Source of the DNA: Auricularia sp. M13
Lineage: Eukaryota > Basidiomycota > Agaricomycetes > Auriculariales > Auriculariaceae
Assembly (NCBI GenBank): GCA_037042915.1
Contig: CM073195.1
Span: 1,426,001 to 1,490,000, forward strand
Direction of reading: 5' to 3'
DNA: 64,000 bases
Shown here: piece by piece, positions 52,179-64,000 of the stretch
Layout of the letters: the number at the start of each line of letters is the position of its first letter
How positions within the stretch are numbered: the first letter of the stretch is position 1
Translations under genes and position numbers: made by a program
The notes under the pieces: generated by a model
Database searches by the model: none
Seen by the model: only the letters and a program-made list of their open reading frames with translations
What the model was told of the DNA's origin: nothing

Positions 52179-52646
52179 GAAAGAAATGTGTGGAGATATG
52201 GAGAGTCGGAGATACAGCAAGGTGCTGCTATCTGGGGTTCAGTTGTGACCGCGGAAGTCCGGTGTTCCAGGCGAAACAAAAGTGCAGAAGAGGCGCCGAA
52301 ACCCTCAGAGACCAAGACGCTCCAAAAGGTGCAGGAAATGCATGACCCTGCAAGGCTCGAGCATGCAAGCTACCTGGCCCTGGGTAGCTTCAATGCTGTA
52401 CAGTCCTATCCTAGAGCTCCGCACGGCTGTGGTCCTCGTCGATCGTTCCCCGACCCATGATCGTTGCATGACGTCAGTCGGTCCGGCGGTCTGGCCGGTG
52501 ATTGATGGAGCTATGTCCGTCGCTCGGTCGTGTGTCAGCGTAGATACCAAGACGAATGAAAAGGTTTTTTTTAACTCACGCTGCACGTGACATGCACGGG
52601 CCCGGTAGCAAAGACGGAACCCTTGCTTGCCCAGCACCAACCAGCT
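52179..52646. promoter_or_regulatory. Divergent promoter region (SDR / MULE-type gene)
   Basis: 468 bases between opposite start codons with no coding signal. It holds the 5' leaders of both genes. Confidence 0.4.
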
Positions 52647-53403
52647 ATGGACTTGCGCATTTGCACTCGTTGCAGCACCGAGCTTCCTCTTACGCAGTAC
52701 AAGCTTAAGACTGATGGGTCACGAACGCTCGCTTGCATCGCCTGCAGCGGCAAAGAAGCACTCCGTCAGAAGCAAAAACGCGACAAACAGCGCGCGCTAC
52801 GCGACGCGTCCAACGACTCGGCCAAGGAGAACCGCGATCCGACCCTTCAACCGGGCCTACGTCCGTCGACGGGCAATGCGGCCGCTACGGGCGCTGAATG
52901 CGGTACTGCGGCATCGACTTCTCCGCCGCTGATTGAGACCGACCCTGGCCGCGCGCTATCATGGGCCGCGTTCTGCGCGCTTATGCAGCAACATCGCCTG
53001 CAAGCGTGCGAAATCAAGACCGTTGTATCGCTCCAGGACGCTCCTATCGACGAGCCGTGTGCCGAGACTTCGGATGACGGTACAATACACGATGACGGCG
53101 ACATCGACAGCCCATGCTTGTCAGAACTGTCGGCCGCCGTTGCGGATGCCATCCGGATTAACATGGGATATAGATTCAAGTATGTAATGCTTCACTTGAC
53201 GCATTTTTCGGTTCTAAATCTTTGCAGCTTGCATAATCATGTAGTTCTTACGGAAAACGAGTACTTTGCCTATTTTTGTGCACAACGAGAAGGGCACCAG
53301 ACCAAGTCCCAGCGTGGTCAGCCTCGCGCGAACAGCTCAAAGGAGGCGCCGACCAAACTTCGGGCCACACTCCCGATGAAGCGCTTCGCATGTGCCGGTC
53401 GGC

Positions 53404-53687
53404 TGTTACGGCTCATTCGCTTTTCGCTCCTATCGCCGTTGGGCTTATCGGACCTCACTCGCGCCGACGTCATACGGACCGAGTCATCAGACCGAGACCC
53501 GCCGGCGCATGCGTGGCCCCGGCCTGCGGTCAGCGGTCCGGCCGGATCCGGACCCCCTTTATATACCGTGTGTTGTCCGCTCTTTGTATGCTAGATTCGA
53601 GCTGGTTTGCCCACCGCCGATACATCTCGTCCTTTTTCCCCCACCCGCAGAGCGTCCGTTCGGCGAGTATCCTCGGTCACCGTAACA
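53404..53687 (+). repeat. Left LTR of the chromovirus
   Basis: 284 bp, TGTTACGG to CCGTAACA. Contains a TATATA-like box (CTTTATATACC near 53556), which probably drives the element. Directly followed by the expected primer-binding region starting TAAGCTCG. Confidence 0.92.
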
Positions 53688-56600
53688 TAAGCTCGAATCT
53701 ACCCCTCCCTTACCGACGCTCCGCGTATCCCCCGTTCCTTCCCCCGCCTTCACCCCGCGCCCTCGGTCAAGCTGTCGCACACCACCCCCGACGTCCAGGC
53801 CGACGGCGAAGAACTCGCCTCCCATCTCCAGCGCCTTTCGCTTTCCCCGACACCACCGTCAAGATGCCGATGACGACCGAGGAGTTCGCTACCTCCATCG
53901 AAACGTCGTTGGTCAACGCCATCAAATCGCTCGGACTCAAACCGGGCAACCCACCCACCAAAAACTACGTCCAGGCCCCGGAGGATTACGATGGGACCCG
54001 CGCCAACTACGAGACCTTCCGTCGGACCTTGGAGCTCCACGTCAAAGGAATCCCCGGCGACCGCAACAAGATACTCGCCGCGCTCGGCTTCCTGACCAAA
54101 GGTGACGCCGACGCTTGGGCACAGAACTGGGGTCAGCTCCACGACCTGGACTCGCCGGACCTCAAGTGGAGCGACTTCCTTCGCGACCTCGACGAGAAGT
54201 TCCTCGACCCGCGCATCGCCGAGCACGCCCGCGAAGCGATCTCCAAGCTCACTCAAGGCCGAGGCGACGCCGACACCTTCTTCCTCAAGTTCGACGAGCT
54301 CCGCATCAAGGCCGGATTTACCAACCCGGAGTATCACGACATCGTTTCGTCGACTACCTTCGGCGCAACCTCAGGCCGGCGCTCGTCCTCGCCGTGATGC
54401 AGTCGCACGAAATCTTCCGGACCACCAGTCTCGCCACGGTCGAAGGACTTCGCAAGGCCGAGGTCGCCACCGAGGACAAGCTCGTCAAGATGGAGGCCGA
54501 CGCCGAGAAACCGCTCGGATACTTTCAATTCCGCAAGTACGCCCTTGAGCAGGACCCGATTATCCGCCGCCACGGTGACCACGCCCGGCCACCAACTCTA
54601 CGCCGCGCCCGGCGGCCAAGCCCTTCGTTCACCATTACACCGAGAGGGTGACTCAACCGGTGATTGTACCTGCCGCGGCGCCCGCTCCGGCGATCACCGC
54701 CCCAGCCACCACCGGTCCTGCGCACGACCCGGACCCCATGGACGTGGACCGTCACCGCGCTCGGACCCTAGGACTCTGCTACCGCTGCAAGAAACCCGGC
54801 CATCTCGCTCGGGACTGCCAGGAGAGGAACTTCAAGGACGTCATCCGAGGCCTTTCCACCGAGGACATGGAGGAGATCGCTCGGATGGTCGAAGGAAAAT
54901 CCACGCTCCTGGAGGAACACGCCGAGGAGACCGAGGACAAGGATTTTTCCGCCCCGCAGTGATTTCCGCGCGATCCCTGTGGGAAGGCGACGGTGTGCCC
55001 TCCGTACCGAATACAGATGAACGTCTTGTCGATACGCACACCGAGCGTGAACACCTAAGACTCGCCGAGGTCCGACCCTCGGCCCTAAGGCAAATGAACA
55101 TACCTCTCACCCTCACCTCCCTCGACACCGGAGAACGGATCCCGGCCAAAGCTCTTTTGGATAGTGGATGCACGACCTCAAGTGTGGACCAGGCGTTTGT
55201 CAAACGCCGGCAGCTTACAACCCAAGCCGCAGCCGTCGTTCGGACCGTCTACAACGCCAACGGCTCGGTCAACGGATTTATCAAGGAGTACGTCGAACTC
55301 CTTGTGGTCGTGCGCGACGCACGCGGCCACGAACACCGCGAACGGCGCGACTTTCCGGTAGCCAACCTTGGTGGAAAACACGACCTCTTCCTAGGATACG
55401 ACTGGTTGGTGGAGCACAACCCGGAAATTGACTGGCCGAAGGGGGCGCTCACGTTCACCCGCTGCCCGCCTCGCTGTGGTATGCCGAACCCGGCGCCGAG
55501 CTCGGCCCGCTACCTCGCCGAGGACTTCGCCTCACTCGCCGACGCTTTGGAGTTCGCGGCCGACGACGAAGAAGAGTATGTTCGGGCTTTCGAGTCTATC
55601 TCAACCCGCATTGAGCAGGCCGCCAAACCCGCCGTCGTCGCCGACATCCCCGAATACTACCGCGAGTACGCCGACGTGTTCGAAAAGAAGGAATTCGACA
55701 AGCTACCCCCCATCGTCGGTGGGATCACGAAATCAACCTCCGGCCCGGATGGGAGAACGACCGCAAGCTCCGCGGAAAGGTTTACGCCTTGTCGCCGAAG
55801 GAGACACAGGCGATGAACGAGTTCTTGGACGAGAACCTCGCGACGGGTCGTATTCGGCCGTCCAACTCGCCCATTGCATCGCCGCTTTTCTTCGTCGGCA
55901 AGAAGGATGGAGGACTCCGACCGACTATGGATTACAGGAGGCTCAACGACCACACCGTGCGGGACTCCTACCCCCTCCCGCTGGTCGCCGACGTCATGAC
56001 CAAGATCAAGGACGCCCGTTATTTCTCTAAGTTCGACGTCCGATGGGGGTACAACAACGTCCGAATCCGACCGGGAGACGAATTCAAGGCCGCGTTCATC
56101 ACGAGCCGAGGTCTGTTCGAACCCACCGTCATGTTCTTCGGCATGACCAACAGCCCGGCCACCTTCCAACGCATGGTGGACGACATATTCGGCGACCTTA
56201 TTCGGCGGATCGTCCTTATCGTCTATATGGACGACCTTTTGGTTTTTACCCGCACCTTGGAGGACCATCGGACCGCGGTTCGGGCCGTACTGGAACTGTG
56301 TCGGCAGACAGGCCTATACCTCAAACTGGAGAAATGCGAGTTCGAGCAAGCCCAAGTCAAGTTCCTCGGCCTGGTTGTAGGAAACGGGCAGGTATCCATG
56401 GACCCAGTCAAGGTGGAGGCCATACGCCGTTGGAACCCCCCGCGCAACCTGCGGGAGGTCCGGTCGTTCATGCAGTTCTGTAACTTCTACCGGAACTTCA
56501 TCCCCCATTTCGCGCACATCACGAAACCCTTCAACCGTCTAACGGAAAAGGGGGTCGTATTCGAATGGGGCCCGGAGCAGCAGCAGGCTTTCGAGGACCT

Positions 56601-58735
56601 TCGCGACGCCGTGTGCAACGACGTTACTCTTCTTCTCCCCAGGACCGGGCCCCGTTCAGGTTGGAGACCGACGCATCAGACTACGCGGCAGGAGGAGTCC
56701 TCCACCAGGTCATCGACGGGAAGCTACGCCCACTCGGGTTCTTTAGCAAGAGCTTCAGTCCCGCCGAGCGTAATTACGAGATCTACGACAAGGAGATGCT
56801 CGCGATGATGCTTTGCCTCGAACATTGGCGCCACTTCCTCAAAGGGGCCCCGCAGTTCCAGATATGGACCGACCATCGGAATCTGCAGTACTTCCGCGAG
56901 CCGCAAAAGCTCAACCGTCGGCAAGCTCGTTGGCTCACCGAGCTCTCCGAGTATGATTTTACATTGCACCACCGGCCGGGCAAGACGAACGTCATCGCCA
57001 ACGAGCTGAGCCGGAACATGCCTAATGAGGGGGCAGAAGACAACGCCGACGTTGTCCTCCTGCAACCGGACCGTTTTCGTCAACTCGCCGAAGAGCACAA
57101 CGGACCGTTGGACGTGATCATTCGGCAACTAGGACTCCGAGACGAGGACCACATCCTGGCCGAGGTTCGCAAGTACGCCAACGAACGCGACGAGGCAGTC
57201 AAGAAGGGCCTGCTTGCGTACCCGCAGGACTTTGTGGAGACGAACGGCGTCGTCGAGTACAAAGGCCGAGTCTACATCCCGCGTAACCGCCGACTACGTG
57301 AACGCATCGTCAGCGCATTTCACGACACACCGATAGCAGGACATCCGGGCAGGTACAAGACTTTGGAGCTCCTTAACCGGTACTACTGGTTCCCCGGCAT
57401 GACCGCGTATGTTGCGCGTTACGTCCGCGCATGCGACGTTTGCCAACGCTCCAAACCGAGGCACGGACCCCTGGCAGGACCCCTACACCCCAACGAGGCG
57501 CCGAGTGCTCCGTGGGAGGTCGTTTCCGCCGACCTCATCGGGCCATTGCCCGAGTCGTTTGGCTTCAACGCGGTCTTCGTCGTGACCGACCGCCACAGCA
57601 AGATGGTCATCCTCTGCCCGACGCATGTTACGGTGACGTCGGAGGGTATAGCGCGCTTGTACCGTGACTTCGTCTTCAAACGGTTCGGCCTGTTCAAGAA
57701 GCTCATCAGCGACCGCAGCCCGCAGTTCGTGTCGGGATTCGCGAACGAGCTCTACAAGCTCCTCGGTATCGAGGCAAACCCGTCCACCGCGTACCACCCG
57801 CAGACCGACGGACAGACCGAGCGGGAGAACGCGGAGATCGAGAAGTACCTTCGCGCATGGACCAACGCCCGGCAGGATGACTGGGCCGATTGGCTCGCTA
57901 TGGCCGAGTTCGCCATCAACAACCGCGCGTCCGAGGCGACGGGTACGTCTCCGTTCTTCCTCAATCACGGTCGCCACCCACGTATGGGCGTGGAACCGCG
58001 TCGAGCGGTCACCAACGAGTCGGCCGCCCAGTTCGCCCAGCGGATGGAAAGGACCTGGGAGGAGGCCAAATCCGCACTCACCAAGGCCGCCGCGTCCATG
58101 AAGACACAGTACGACCGGCGCCGAGGTGCTTCGCGACAATACAAGGTCGGCGACAAAGTGTGGCTCGAAGCGACCAACCTCAAGCTTGCGGTCTCGTCCA
58201 AGAAACTGGCCGAACGGCGCTTCGGTCCTTTCAAGATCCTCGAAAGTGTGGGTCATTCCGCCTTCAAATTGGAGCTGCCGGAGGCGTGGAAAACCTACAC
58301 CCCGTCTTCCACGAAAGCCTCCTCTCGCCGTACGTTGCGCCGTACGCCCCGCACCAACGCCGCCCCGCCCCGCCGGCGCCGACCATCGTGGACGATCACG
58401 AGGAGTACGAAGTGGAGGAGATCCTGGATTCCAAGAAGCTCGGACGAGGCGTTGTCTACCTGGTCAAATGGGCCGGCTACGGGCGCGAGCACAACTCCTG
58501 GGTCCCCAAGGGAAATCTCGGCAACGCGATCGGCGCCGTCGAGGACTTCGTCCGCCGCAACCCGGGTAAACCCCAGAACATCCACTCTCTCGTCTTCGAC
58601 CGTGCCATATTTCCCTCCAACTTCTTCGAGCGCCACCATACCACAGGGATCGACTTCAACATCCCGACCCGGTCACCGCGGCCCGCAGGGCGCGGGCCCT
58701 CGGCACGACGCTCGTTCGGTCCTAGTAGGGGGTTA

Positions 58736-59019
58736 TGTTACGGCTCATTCGCTTTTCGCTCCTATCGCCGTTGGGCTTATCGGACCTCACTCGCGCCGAC
58801 GTCATACGGACCGAGTCATCAGACCGAGACCCGCCGGCGCATGCGTGGCCCCGGCCTGCGGTCAGTGGTCCGGCCGGATCCGGACCCCCTTTATATACCG
58901 TGTGTTGTCCGCTCTTTGTATGCTAGATTCGAGCTGGTTTGCCCACCGCCGATACATCTCGTCCTTTTTCCCCCACCCGCAGAGCGTCCGTTCGGCGAGT
59001 ATCCTCGGTCACCGTAACA
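58736..59019 (+). repeat. Right LTR of the chromovirus
   Basis: 284 bp, the same as the left LTR except for one base seen near 58866. The 5-bp repeat TCGGC follows at 59020-59024. Confidence 0.92.
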
Positions 59020-59362
59020 TCGGCTGCATATATCGATCCCAAACGATGGACAGTGCGCTCACGTCCACCTTTATCACGAGAAGGCGCACGATGCGTACTG
59101 CCACGTCGAGGTGCCGGACGATATCAAGACTTTTGTCTACGAGAATCGGCACATGCTGCCATCCGCGGTGAGTCGTCCGACGTTGAATGAGTACAGCGGA
59201 AATTAATGGTAGACCTTCGATAGATATGGGCCGAGCTTCTGAAGCGGCACCCTGGCACGGAGCTGGAGCCTTGGCAGATTGCCAGGCTTTGGGCAACGCT
59301 CAGTCAGGACAAATGGCGCCTTGCTGACGATCAGCTTGAATCAGCGCGCAAGCTTCTCGAGA

Positions 59363-60386
59363 TGTTACGGTGCGCGGCGATCTTGCCCATACGCCGCTTC
59401 CGTTGGATCTCTTTCGCCGCTTCACCCGCTCCGTCGGACCGATATACCCGTTCCGCATGCCTCTCCGGACCGCTGGCACCTCGGCTACCTTCTCTCGGCG
59501 TCACCGGACCCCTGTCAACCTCGGTCCTTGGATGCGACACGCTATTGCCATTGTTGTCGATCACCGCTGCGCTGGTTTCCACCCGGCGTGTATCTGTTCG
59601 TCGGTCCGTCTTCTCGGTGTCACATTACGGCCTACACCTTCGGAGATGCCGCACACCACACCTCGGGTATTGCCCTGCATGGCCGGTGTGCGCTGGGAGT
59701 ACAGGTGAAGCTGCAACGATCGTGCCGACGTACATCCTTCACCCTCTGTCCCCTGGATGCTCGACCGCTCCGGCACCTCGGACCTCGGCCGCCACACTCT
59801 CCTCGGTCCGCGCGCGGCATGGTCCATGGTCCGGAGGCTGTCCGGATGGAGTGGGAGTGTTGATTGTTGGGTGGTACGCTCGTACCTCGCTCGCCGACGC
59901 GTTGCGCTCGCCGCTACGCTCGCCATTGCATCGGCGCCTTTCGCCCCCGGTGTCAGTGCGTGCATGCATGCAAGGACACCTCGGTCTGTCTCGGATACCC
60001 GCCCAATACCCTCCATAGGCACGGACATCCTTTATCCCCTTCGTCCGGAGTCGTTCTGCGCCTTCGGCGCGACGCTTCACTCTTTCTTGACCCTCCCTTG
60101 ACTCCCTTTACCCCCCATTGCTTCCACTGGCTCCAGATTACCCTCGGTGACTTCCCCGATGCCTTTCCCATCGCTTCCGGACCTCTCTTTGGTGTTGGTT
60201 GGCTTCCTTTGTTGTCCGGAGCGTTCGGATCCGGTTTGCCTCCGATCGGACTATATGTACCGGCGATTGCCCTCGGATGTACCCTAGGTTGGATCTGGTC
60301 TATTATGTGTTCGACCTTCCCCTCCTGAGTACCCTTCCTGGTCGGCTACGCCTCCAGGTCGGTGGTGTATGCAGCACACCGTGACA
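59363..60386 (+). repeat. Left LTR of the non-autonomous element
   Basis: About 1024 bp, pyrimidine-rich on the plus strand. Starts TGTTACGGTG and ends ACCGTGACA. Confidence 0.88.
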
Positions 60387-62701
60387 TAAGATCCAACCTA
60401 CCCCGTCCACTCCGGGTACTCAGTTCCTCCCCCCCTCTATCCTCTTCTATCCGCTCTCTACTTCCTCCTACCCCCAGCGGAGCTGCGAGTGCCCGCCCCG
60501 GCGGTCTCCACGATATCCCCTTCGCTTATACCACCTGGACCTTGGATATAGGACCGATCTCGCCCACGGAATCCCCTGGCCTCGGTCTCAAGCTTCTGGT
60601 GGCCGCCCCCTTGGACCCGAACCCTCCCGGACCCCCTGGCCGCCTCTCGGCCTTCCTTTAACCCCATACCGCCCTTAGGCACGCTTCCCAAACCTTACCC
60701 TCAAGTTCCGGACCCTTCTGGAGTTGTAGTTTTCCCTTTGGTCGCCCCTCGCAACGACGTCCGGCAAATCCCGCTCGCAGTCCGCACGAATCGCTTCGCC
60801 GACGAACACCCTATAGGCCGATGGCTTTCAAACTTTGCCGACACCCTTGCACCACCCCTCCGGAGTCCCATGCGAAGTTACGAGGCGCTACGCTTGCCGA
60901 TGCCGCCGTTGCCATGCACTGCCTCGGCCGGACCATTTCCGCTCCCCTCGCCGGCCCCTGCTGCGTTCCGCCTGCCCCAAGGCTTGGTCAACGCGTATCA
61001 ACGTCCCCCACCCATGCGTGCTTGACCGATACCCCGCGCACGCTGTCCTGGCTGCCAATCGAGCGTTTGAGCGTCCCACACACTTGCACACCTCGGTCCT
61101 TCGCAGCGCGACCCTCGGCACCCATCTACCCTCGGTCCTTGTGCTCCAAGTTCACCTCGGACCATTCCACACCTACCGATGCCGGCCGCTGTCAGTTATG
61201 CAACGCTGGCAACAGTACAGGTCGCCGTGCGCTCGGCCGAGCTGCTGGACATCTGGTGTTTCGCACCCTCCGCCGACCTGGATCTTCCGGTGTCGGACGC
61301 GTGAGCCAACGCTGACCTACCTCGCCGCTGGACCTTGGAGGTGCTCCCTGACATGGACCGAGGCCGGAGCCTCGCTGGATCGCATTGGTTTGCTCGGAAT
61401 ATCGGTGTTCACGCGCGCACCCCCTCTTCGGCGTTACAGGATGGAGTACACGAACCGGACACGGACCCAATGGTCTCACAGGCTTTCCGTCCATCGCCCA
61501 GGTGTTTTGGCAAGGTCTCCGCAGCCGCATGACCCGCCGCCCGTTCGATACAACGCGCCCCCAGCGATGCTGCCGACTGTCAACCCCCTGTCCGCTCCGC
61601 CGTTTATTTCGCCGTCGGGCGTCTTTCCGAATCCCGCGCGAGGTGCCCGTGTCCTCTCCCAACTCCTGGCCTTCTATCTGCGGTCGGACCTTGCCAAACG
61701 AAGAGGTCCTCGGCAAGATATGTGCATCCGATGTTCAGTGCACCGGTCGCGTACGTCGGCCGCCCTGACATCGCATCCTGTTGGACCTGTGGACCTCTCT
61801 GGCGCATCTGGAACCCCCTCCCGGGACGGACCCGCGTTTCGGACCCACCGGCGATGTCACTGATGAAGTCCGGCTCTGCTTGCGCACTGCATGAGCTCAA
61901 TTCGGGATAGCCGCTGTTTGCCCTCGGACTCGCCGTCGCATCGGACATCCTCCCCTACACTCCACCCCTCCTCCAGGGCTGCCACCCCGATTCCGACCGC
62001 ACTGGCTTATGCTTACGACCGTCATGACTTCGCTTCAAACTCTCGTCGTGCCCTTCACCGGGGTTGAGGTTGCGATCCACCGGGATGCGCAGTGCTCAGC
62101 GTTGTTGGTCGCGGACCAGCACTCCGACACCTCCTATACCTTCGGTCCTGTGCCTTGGGCGCTATCTCGGTGTACTCGGGCCTTCCCCCACCCTTGTACC
62201 CCAGCCGGAGATGGTAGGAGTCCGTTCATGGGTGCAGCGCGTCCCGCTCTCTTTTCCATTACGACCTCGACCGCTCCTGCGTTTCGCTCGGCAGTAACGA
62301 CCTTTCCCGTGTTCCCTCCCGGACGGTAGGACTCCCAGTGGCCGCCGCATATTGAGATGTGGTGTGGGGACATCCCGAGTAGGTGTCCTTCTCGCTTGGA
62401 GCTCGGACCGACTCTTTCCCTTGGACCTGCAATGTTTCCGACGCTGGTGTTGCACCTTGGATCGGTGAGGATTGATCGCCGTGCCGTAATAGCCCGTCAG
62501 TCCTCACCCCCAATGGGCCTCGCTTTCGCCGTGGACCACTTCGGTCCGAGCGGGGGAGACGACCTCCGTGCTTTGGGTCTCGCCCGATGCGAGGGTACAC
62601 TTCTATTTCGATTCGTCATGAATTTAACGACTTCGGCCACCCCCAATGGCCTCCACCATGCTCGGTCGCTTTTTGCGGGCTCGCGGCTGGAAGGGGGGTT
62701 A

Positions 62702-63724
62702 TGTTACGGTGCGCGGCGATCTTGCCCATACGCCGCTTCCGTTGGATCTCTTTCGCCGCTTCACCCGCTCCGTCGGACCGATATACCCGTTCCGCATGCC
62801 TCTCCGGACCGCTGGCACCTCGGCTACCTTCTCTCGGCGTCACCGGACCCCTGTCAACCTCGGTCCTTGGATGCGACACGCTATTGCCATTGTTGTCGAT
62901 CACCGCTGCGCTGGTTTCCACCCGGCGTGTATCTGTTCGTCGGTCCGTCTTCTCGGTGTCACATTACGGCCTACACCTTCGGAGATGCCGCACACCACAC
63001 CTCGGGTATTGCCCTGCATGGCCGGTGTGCGCTGGGAGTACAGGTGAAGCTGCAACGATCGTGCCGACGTACATCCTTCACCCTCTGTCCCCTGGATGCT
63101 CGACCGCTCCGGCACCTCGGACCTCGGCCGCCACACTCTCCTCGGTCCGCGCGCGGCATGGTCCATGGTCCGGAGGCTGTCCGGATGGAGTGGGAGTGTT
63201 GATTGTTGGGTGGTACGCTCGTACCTCGCTCGCCGACGCGTTGCGCTCGCCGCTACGCTCGCCATTGCATCGGCGCCTTTCGCCCCGGTGTCAGTGCGTG
63301 CATGCATGCAAGGACACCTCGGTCTGTCTCGGATACCCGCCCAATACCCTCCATAGGCACGGACATCCTTTATCCCCTTCGTCCGGAGTCGTTCTGCGCC
63401 TTCGGCGCGACGCTTCACTCTTTCTTGACCCTCCCTTGACTCCCTTTACCCCCCATTGCTTCCACTGGCTCCAGATTACCCTCGGTGACTTCCCCGATGC
63501 CTTTCCCATCGCTTCCGGACCTCTCTTTGGTGTTGGTTGGCTTCCTTTGTTGTCCGGAGCGTTCGGATCCGGTTTGCCTCCGATCGGACTATATGTACCG
63601 GCGATTGCCCTCGGATGTACCCTAGGTTGGATCTGGTCTATTATGTGTTCGACCTTCCCCTCCTGAGTACCCTTCCTGGTCGGCTACGCCTCCAGGTCGG
63701 TGGTGTATGCAGCACACCGTGACA
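62702..63724 (+). repeat. Right LTR of the non-autonomous element
   Basis: About 1023 bp, a near-perfect copy of the left LTR. It is followed by the duplicated CGAGA and then the resumed host reading frame. Confidence 0.88.
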
Positions 63725-64000
63725 CGAGAAGGACGAGGATGCTCTCGTGTTCCCGCTTGAAGAGGAGCCTGGCCTCATAGCCATTGCCTTTGCCCTCAAG
63801 GAATGTGTTCAGAAGTTGAACACTGGGGTTGTCGAGCTTGCCATGGATTCCACCTGTGAGTAGCACCCTCACATTCTTGTTCCTTTACAGAAACTAACAC
63901 GGGCACATAGGGAAAACCAACGCCCTTGGATATGAGACATACGGTCTCATTGCAGAGGCCAACGGCCAATCGGTTCCGCTGTGCTTTATTCTTACGACGT

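Follow-up and report, generated by a model that had tools for sequence, protein, structure and literature searches.

Two LTR retrotransposons of different families in the exons of a MULE-type transposase gene of Auricularia sp. M13

We have analysed a stretch of 64,000 nucleotides from Auricularia sp. M13 (G000:C3:1426001-1490000, referred to here as the window), part of an assembly of 52.1 Mb in 14 contigs, together with the adjoining sequence (L002, C3:1489001-1498000), in which each position equals the window position minus 63000. At the right-hand end of the window there is a Mutator-like (MULE) transposase gene on the plus strand, spanning positions 52647-65848, the last part of which lies past the window end. 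It has six exons and five introns of 48-56 bp, all five of them GT-AG, so that the splice sites are still canonical, as an earlier note on this DNA had held. A search for 5.8S rRNA had no match; the short introns, the look of the MULE protein and the chromodomain element described below would suit a fungus, probably a basidiomycete. The coding sequence totals 2949 bases, i.e., 982 codons plus the stop, when one duplicate is counted at each of the two sites where an LTR element interrupts the gene. Exon 1 (52647-53179) is followed by an exon 2 in two parts, 53228-53403, which ends in one copy of a target site duplication (TSD), and 59025-59167. Exon 3 is divided likewise into 59224-59362, also ending in a TSD copy, and 63730-63855, ending in an MDST stretch. 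Exon 4 is found at 63911-64371 (63911-64000 inside the window), and exons 5 (64427-65575) and 6 (65627-65848) are in the adjoining sequence. The earlier note had named host-gene stops or frameshifts outside the inserts as the damage to look for; when the exon pieces were translated apart, in the predicted phase, there was not a single premature stop or frameshift.

The MULE-type identity of the gene, also proposed before, was borne out by comparing the exon pieces with Pfam. Exon 4 matched the MULE domain (PF10551) with 33.3 bits (cut-off 27.6), and also passed when the whole genome was scanned. Exon 5 matched the SWIM finger with 19.8 bits against a cut-off of 19.6, a margin of 0.2 bits. A C-terminal SWIM finger is common in MULE DNA transposons, without being universal. 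None of the other six exon pieces gave a Pfam match over the cut-off, including exon 1, where an N-terminal CxxC...CxxC stretch can be recognized by eye, and exon 5 had no match among solved structures at E values up to 1. In the alignments inspected, a D-K pair, a C-x-W-H motif and an E before a W-x-x-x-K-H stretch, which belong to the catalytic core, are common to the gene and further MULEs from this genome. Pieces of its exons 3-5 are about 32-44% identical to their matches in five of those MULE genes. At the DNA level the gene is single copy in the assembly, where it gave one full match and, on contig C8, a match of 43 bp.

Outside the coding sequence the gene is bounded by repeats. A direct repeat of 11 bp (TGTGGTCCTCG) at 52428-52438 has its right copy at 66148-66158, past the window, and terminal inverted repeats (TIRs) of 38 bp, the left one on the plus strand, are located at 52439-52476 and 66110-66147. 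The two copies of the direct repeat are identical (11/11) and flush with the TIRs on the outside. The TIRs match at 33 of 38 positions, the inner 28 bases being all identical and five of the outer ten matching. Local alignment of the two ends scored 57, where the best of 200 shuffles reached 29, and the inner 28-mer, with up to three mismatches, occurs once forward and once reverse in the 52.1 Mb, its backward control being absent from the assembly. An 11-mer common to both of two random boundaries was found in 6 of 20,000 draws from positions 1-52000 of the window, under a rule looser than what was observed (any common 11-mer no more than 25 bp from both boundaries). As far as described in PMC6446971, the TSDs of MULEs are 8-11 bp long. 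Because the TIRs and the 11-bp TSD bound the gene, it is, judging from its sequence, the body of a complete Mutator-like DNA transposon and not a free-standing host gene; a host gene of ordinary function is ruled out by the same repeats. The earlier note was right in calling the target MULE-type and missed that it is a transposon body with TIRs and an 11-bp TSD, since its right end is 2.1 kb outside the window. Both kinds of repeat are new here. As a trace of movement, a second copy of the MULE was sought, and there is none in the assembly.

Ten other MULE loci were found in the genome by protein and Pfam searches. Inverted arms above the control were present in five of them (more than 20 matches, as 42 overlapping control slices taken from the window gave 20 at most), and the other five had nothing above it. 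At three of the five with such arms (L026, L028, and L033) there is also an exact direct repeat of 9-10 bp at the arms or up to 3 bp from them: in L028 a gap of 3 bp separates it from the arm on either side, and in L033 repeat and arms have one base in common. No TSD was found at the remaining 7 of 10. The arms of L033, a MULE on contig C6, match at 78 of 79 bases and are accompanied by a direct repeat of 10 bp. Those of L030, on C2, match at 62 of 63 bases and have no direct repeat. These two loci have terminal sequence in common on at least one side.

The presence of two LTR elements of different families in exons of this one gene, as claimed in the earlier note, is confirmed by their LTRs and TSDs, and the clean 5-bp duplications described there (TCGGC and CGAGA) are indeed both perfect. 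The spacing has to be corrected, as the elements are 343 bp apart rather than 339 bp. Besides the repeats of these two elements, the window contains no direct repeats of 100 bases or more.

Element 1 (53404-59019, plus strand) is of the Ty3/Gypsy type with a chromodomain. Its LTRs (53404-53687 and 58736-59019) are 284 bp long each and have one C/T difference, a sole substitution that falls at a CpG, and the element is flanked by TCGGC at 53399-53403 and 59020-59024. Reverse transcriptase (RT), RNase H, the H2C2 integrase zinc finger, the Tf2-1-type SH3 and the chromodomain (44.6 bits against a cut-off of 25.1) were all over the Pfam cut-offs; the integrase core was just below (32.1 against 32.6), and the gag and protease matches were also below their cut-offs. 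This is the chromovirus order of Ty3/Gypsy elements (RT, RNase H, integrase plus chromodomain), together with TG...CA LTRs and a 5-bp TSD. Because the matched domains fall in three different frames, with a stop between the gag and protease stretches, the window copy is, as it reads, broken despite its near-identical LTRs. Perhaps it was mobilised by the proteins of another copy, or else it carries sequencing errors.

For the family of element 1 (family 1), 40 LTR matches were scored from 51 candidates, so that the counts are lower bounds. These correspond to 24 places, 16 with LTR pairs (the window copy included) and 8 with single LTR matches. The 15 other pairs were fetched and all 15 have a perfect 5-bp TSD, with 1, 0, 2, 1, 1, 0, 2, 2, 1, 1, 1, 3, 0, 5, and 9 differences between their LTRs. 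A 5-bp TSD was found at one of the eight single LTR matches and at none of the other seven. The window copy, with its one LTR difference, is one of many recent copies of this family.

Element 2 (59363-63724, plus strand) consists of a pair of LTRs around 2.3 kb of internal sequence. The LTRs, at 59363-60386 (1024 bp) and 62702-63724 (1023 bp), have no substitutions and one 1-bp C indel, and CGAGA flanks the element at 59358-59362 and 63725-63729. No Pfam domain was matched in the four internal frames tested. It would appear to be a large non-autonomous (LARD-like) LTR element. For its family (family 2), 40 LTR matches were scored from 115 candidates, and these counts are also lower bounds; the TSD survey beyond the window covered family 1, and the TSD of family 2 is that of the window copy. 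Elements 1 and 2 belong to different families, since apart from their first and last bases their LTRs have short matches only (best E value 0.25).

A third LTR element, also young, lies on the minus strand (window coordinates 66770-71081, L002:3770-8081). It has LTRs of about 855 bp and a CACTG TSD, and begins 611 bp past the right TSD of the MULE. When the LTRs of the three elements were searched against positions 1-52000 of the window no match was found. All three sets of LTRs begin with TGTTRCGG and end with CCGTRACA, and in all three elements a run of five to seven G followed by TTA stands before the 3' LTR. Given these shared ends, element 2 may be mobilised by the proteins of element 1 relatives. 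Furthermore, each 5' LTR is immediately followed by a stretch complementary to part of the LTR of the same element, over 12, 12, and 11 bases in elements 1, 2, and 3, respectively (candidate self-priming sites at 53688-53707, 60387-60406 and L002:7207-7226, the last on the minus strand), and the LTR copy of the complement lies 32, 33, and 34 bp after a TATA. As a control, 145 internal 20-mers from each of elements 1 and 2 gave maxima of 11 and 10, respectively. In Tf1-like self-priming the primer site pairs with the beginning of the transcript from the same element, an arrangement that the complements would fit, so that elements 1, 2, and 3 may be self-primed like Tf1. The complementary site is present even in element 2, which has no coding domains. 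Self-priming is among the features described for chromodomain Ty3/Gypsy elements in PMC2864245, to the extent drawn on here.

Regarding the reading frame, 709 coding bases precede the first site and 991 the second (one duplicate counted), both sites being in phase 1. As they stand, the inserts break the frame (5616+5 and 4362+5 bases are both 2 modulo 3). The earlier note had taken the continuity of the frame as a sign that the gene was open until very recently. The phase does run on once each insert and one duplicate are removed, but this holds by definition for any clean insertion and is hence no evidence. The evidence lies in the exon pieces, all of which are open and free of other damage.

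We consider it very probable that a complete, single-copy MULE has been broken by two independent LTR insertions, in exons 2 and 3. The Mutator-like transposon, complete and of ca. 3.7 kb without its inserts, would have been here first as a single copy. The two LTR retrotransposons of different families would then have inserted independently, each one duplicating 5 bp of the target and splitting the transposase gene into pieces. Since the ends and TSD of the MULE are legible, as are both target sites and the open exon pieces, the succession is settled: the MULE came first and the LTR elements later. We infer that the transposase would have worked before the insertions, which in turn would abolish it, and both insertions are likely to be recent also in years. 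The earlier note proposed that another haplotype or strain may still carry the gene intact; the present assembly has a single copy of the gene, and an empty-site allele was found in it for neither LTR insert.

One could think instead of a host gene of MULE origin, domesticated and FAR1-like, whose useful function for the host has been lost here. The single copy at the DNA level and the open exons would suit such a gene, but the inverted repeats that are unique to this locus and the 11-bp direct repeat bound the gene exactly, and the same kind of ends with TSDs is seen at 3 of the 10 other MULE loci. A FAR1-like gene would be one without transposon ends, and here TIRs and a TSD are present, so that we regard this origin as very unlikely. 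An assembly artefact, with repeats placed at this locus through mis-joins, we regard as more improbable still. Both inserted families do have many close copies in the genome (at least 40 scored LTR matches each), and the 1-bp indels among LTRs could be read errors. Nonetheless, the two elements are each flanked by a perfect 5-bp TSD of their own, TCGGC is not the TSD of any of the 15 other family 1 pairs, and the gene sequence is single in the assembly and in phase on both sides of the inserts.

The choice of the target is another matter, since the insertions need not have been random: the integrase chromodomain might direct these elements to silenced transposons, and a silenced MULE would then be a preferred site. 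Element 1 does have a chromodomain, the third LTR element lies just past the MULE, and one family 1 copy is 2.0 kb from another MULE. Moreover, the two families tend to be neighbours. Among 24 family 1 and 33 family 2 places on 12 contigs (51.8 of the 52.1 Mb), five pairs are no more than 5 kb apart (the window pair included), against 0.23 expected, and 0 of 2000 trials of random placing reached five; within 1 kb there are two pairs against 0.12 expected (19 of 2000 trials reached two). At C11:1137108-1147083 a family 2 LTR sits between the LTRs of a family 1 copy. Against a preference for MULEs, only one of the ten further MULE loci has a listed LTR of either family within 3 kb (one or more would be met by chance with a probability of 0.08), and these counts rest on the best 40 matches per family, not on all copies. 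The clustering may also reflect just selection against insertions in genes, as the random model takes no account of gene density. That the LTR families cluster is clear, and an attraction to MULEs is not shown; directed insertion seems to us possible, if rather unlikely. We hold as doubtful, and less likely again, a broader scenario in which chromodomain elements, and a non-autonomous partner with the same ends, are attracted by DNA transposons that have only just been silenced and have finished off the last MULE copy here, a fresh loss with intact alleles still in the population.

Nests of this kind have been described in plants. In the parts of the work of Zhao and Jiang (2014; PMC3903597) used here, nested insertions were reported in 36% of 530 maize and 41% of 476 rice candidate coding-MULEs. 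Those of maize were mostly LTR elements, over half of the affected maize elements had two or more insertions, and the largest fraction of the dated insertions was less than 1 million years old. The authors considered that some MULEs may attract LTR elements. The resemblance to our locus is evident, as in both cases MULEs that code for a transposase have been hit by LTR retrotransposons, in many instances by more than one. However, those are hundreds of coding MULEs in plants, and here we have, in a fungus, a single-copy MULE with all its exon pieces open. As for the host element, Mutator-like transposons such as the Hop sub-group, which includes Basidiomycota, are alike in the MULE domain, the SWIM finger, TIRs of tens of bp, and TSDs of 8-11 bp, according to PMC6446971; the present MULE differs in an N-terminal CxxC stretch with no Pfam match. 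The chromodomain Ty3/Gypsy elements, so far as PMC2864245 is drawn on, resemble element 1 in the order of RT, RNase H, and integrase, the Tf2-1-type SH3, the chromodomain, the TG...CA LTRs, the 5-bp TSD, and the self-complementary site after the 5' LTR. In contrast to them, the frames of the window copy of element 1 are broken, and element 2 has the same ends without coding domains.

The locus is a fresh example of a kind already in print from maize and rice, a nest of mobile elements that is ordinary in itself and unusually clear. Retrotransposons have broken a DNA transposon in a way that can be cleanly read, and the interruption itself is ordinary transposon biology. Should other strains turn out to have empty-site alleles, the loss of a MULE lineage could be dated from this locus, which would also provide a natural test of whether chromodomain elements have a preference for silenced transposons.
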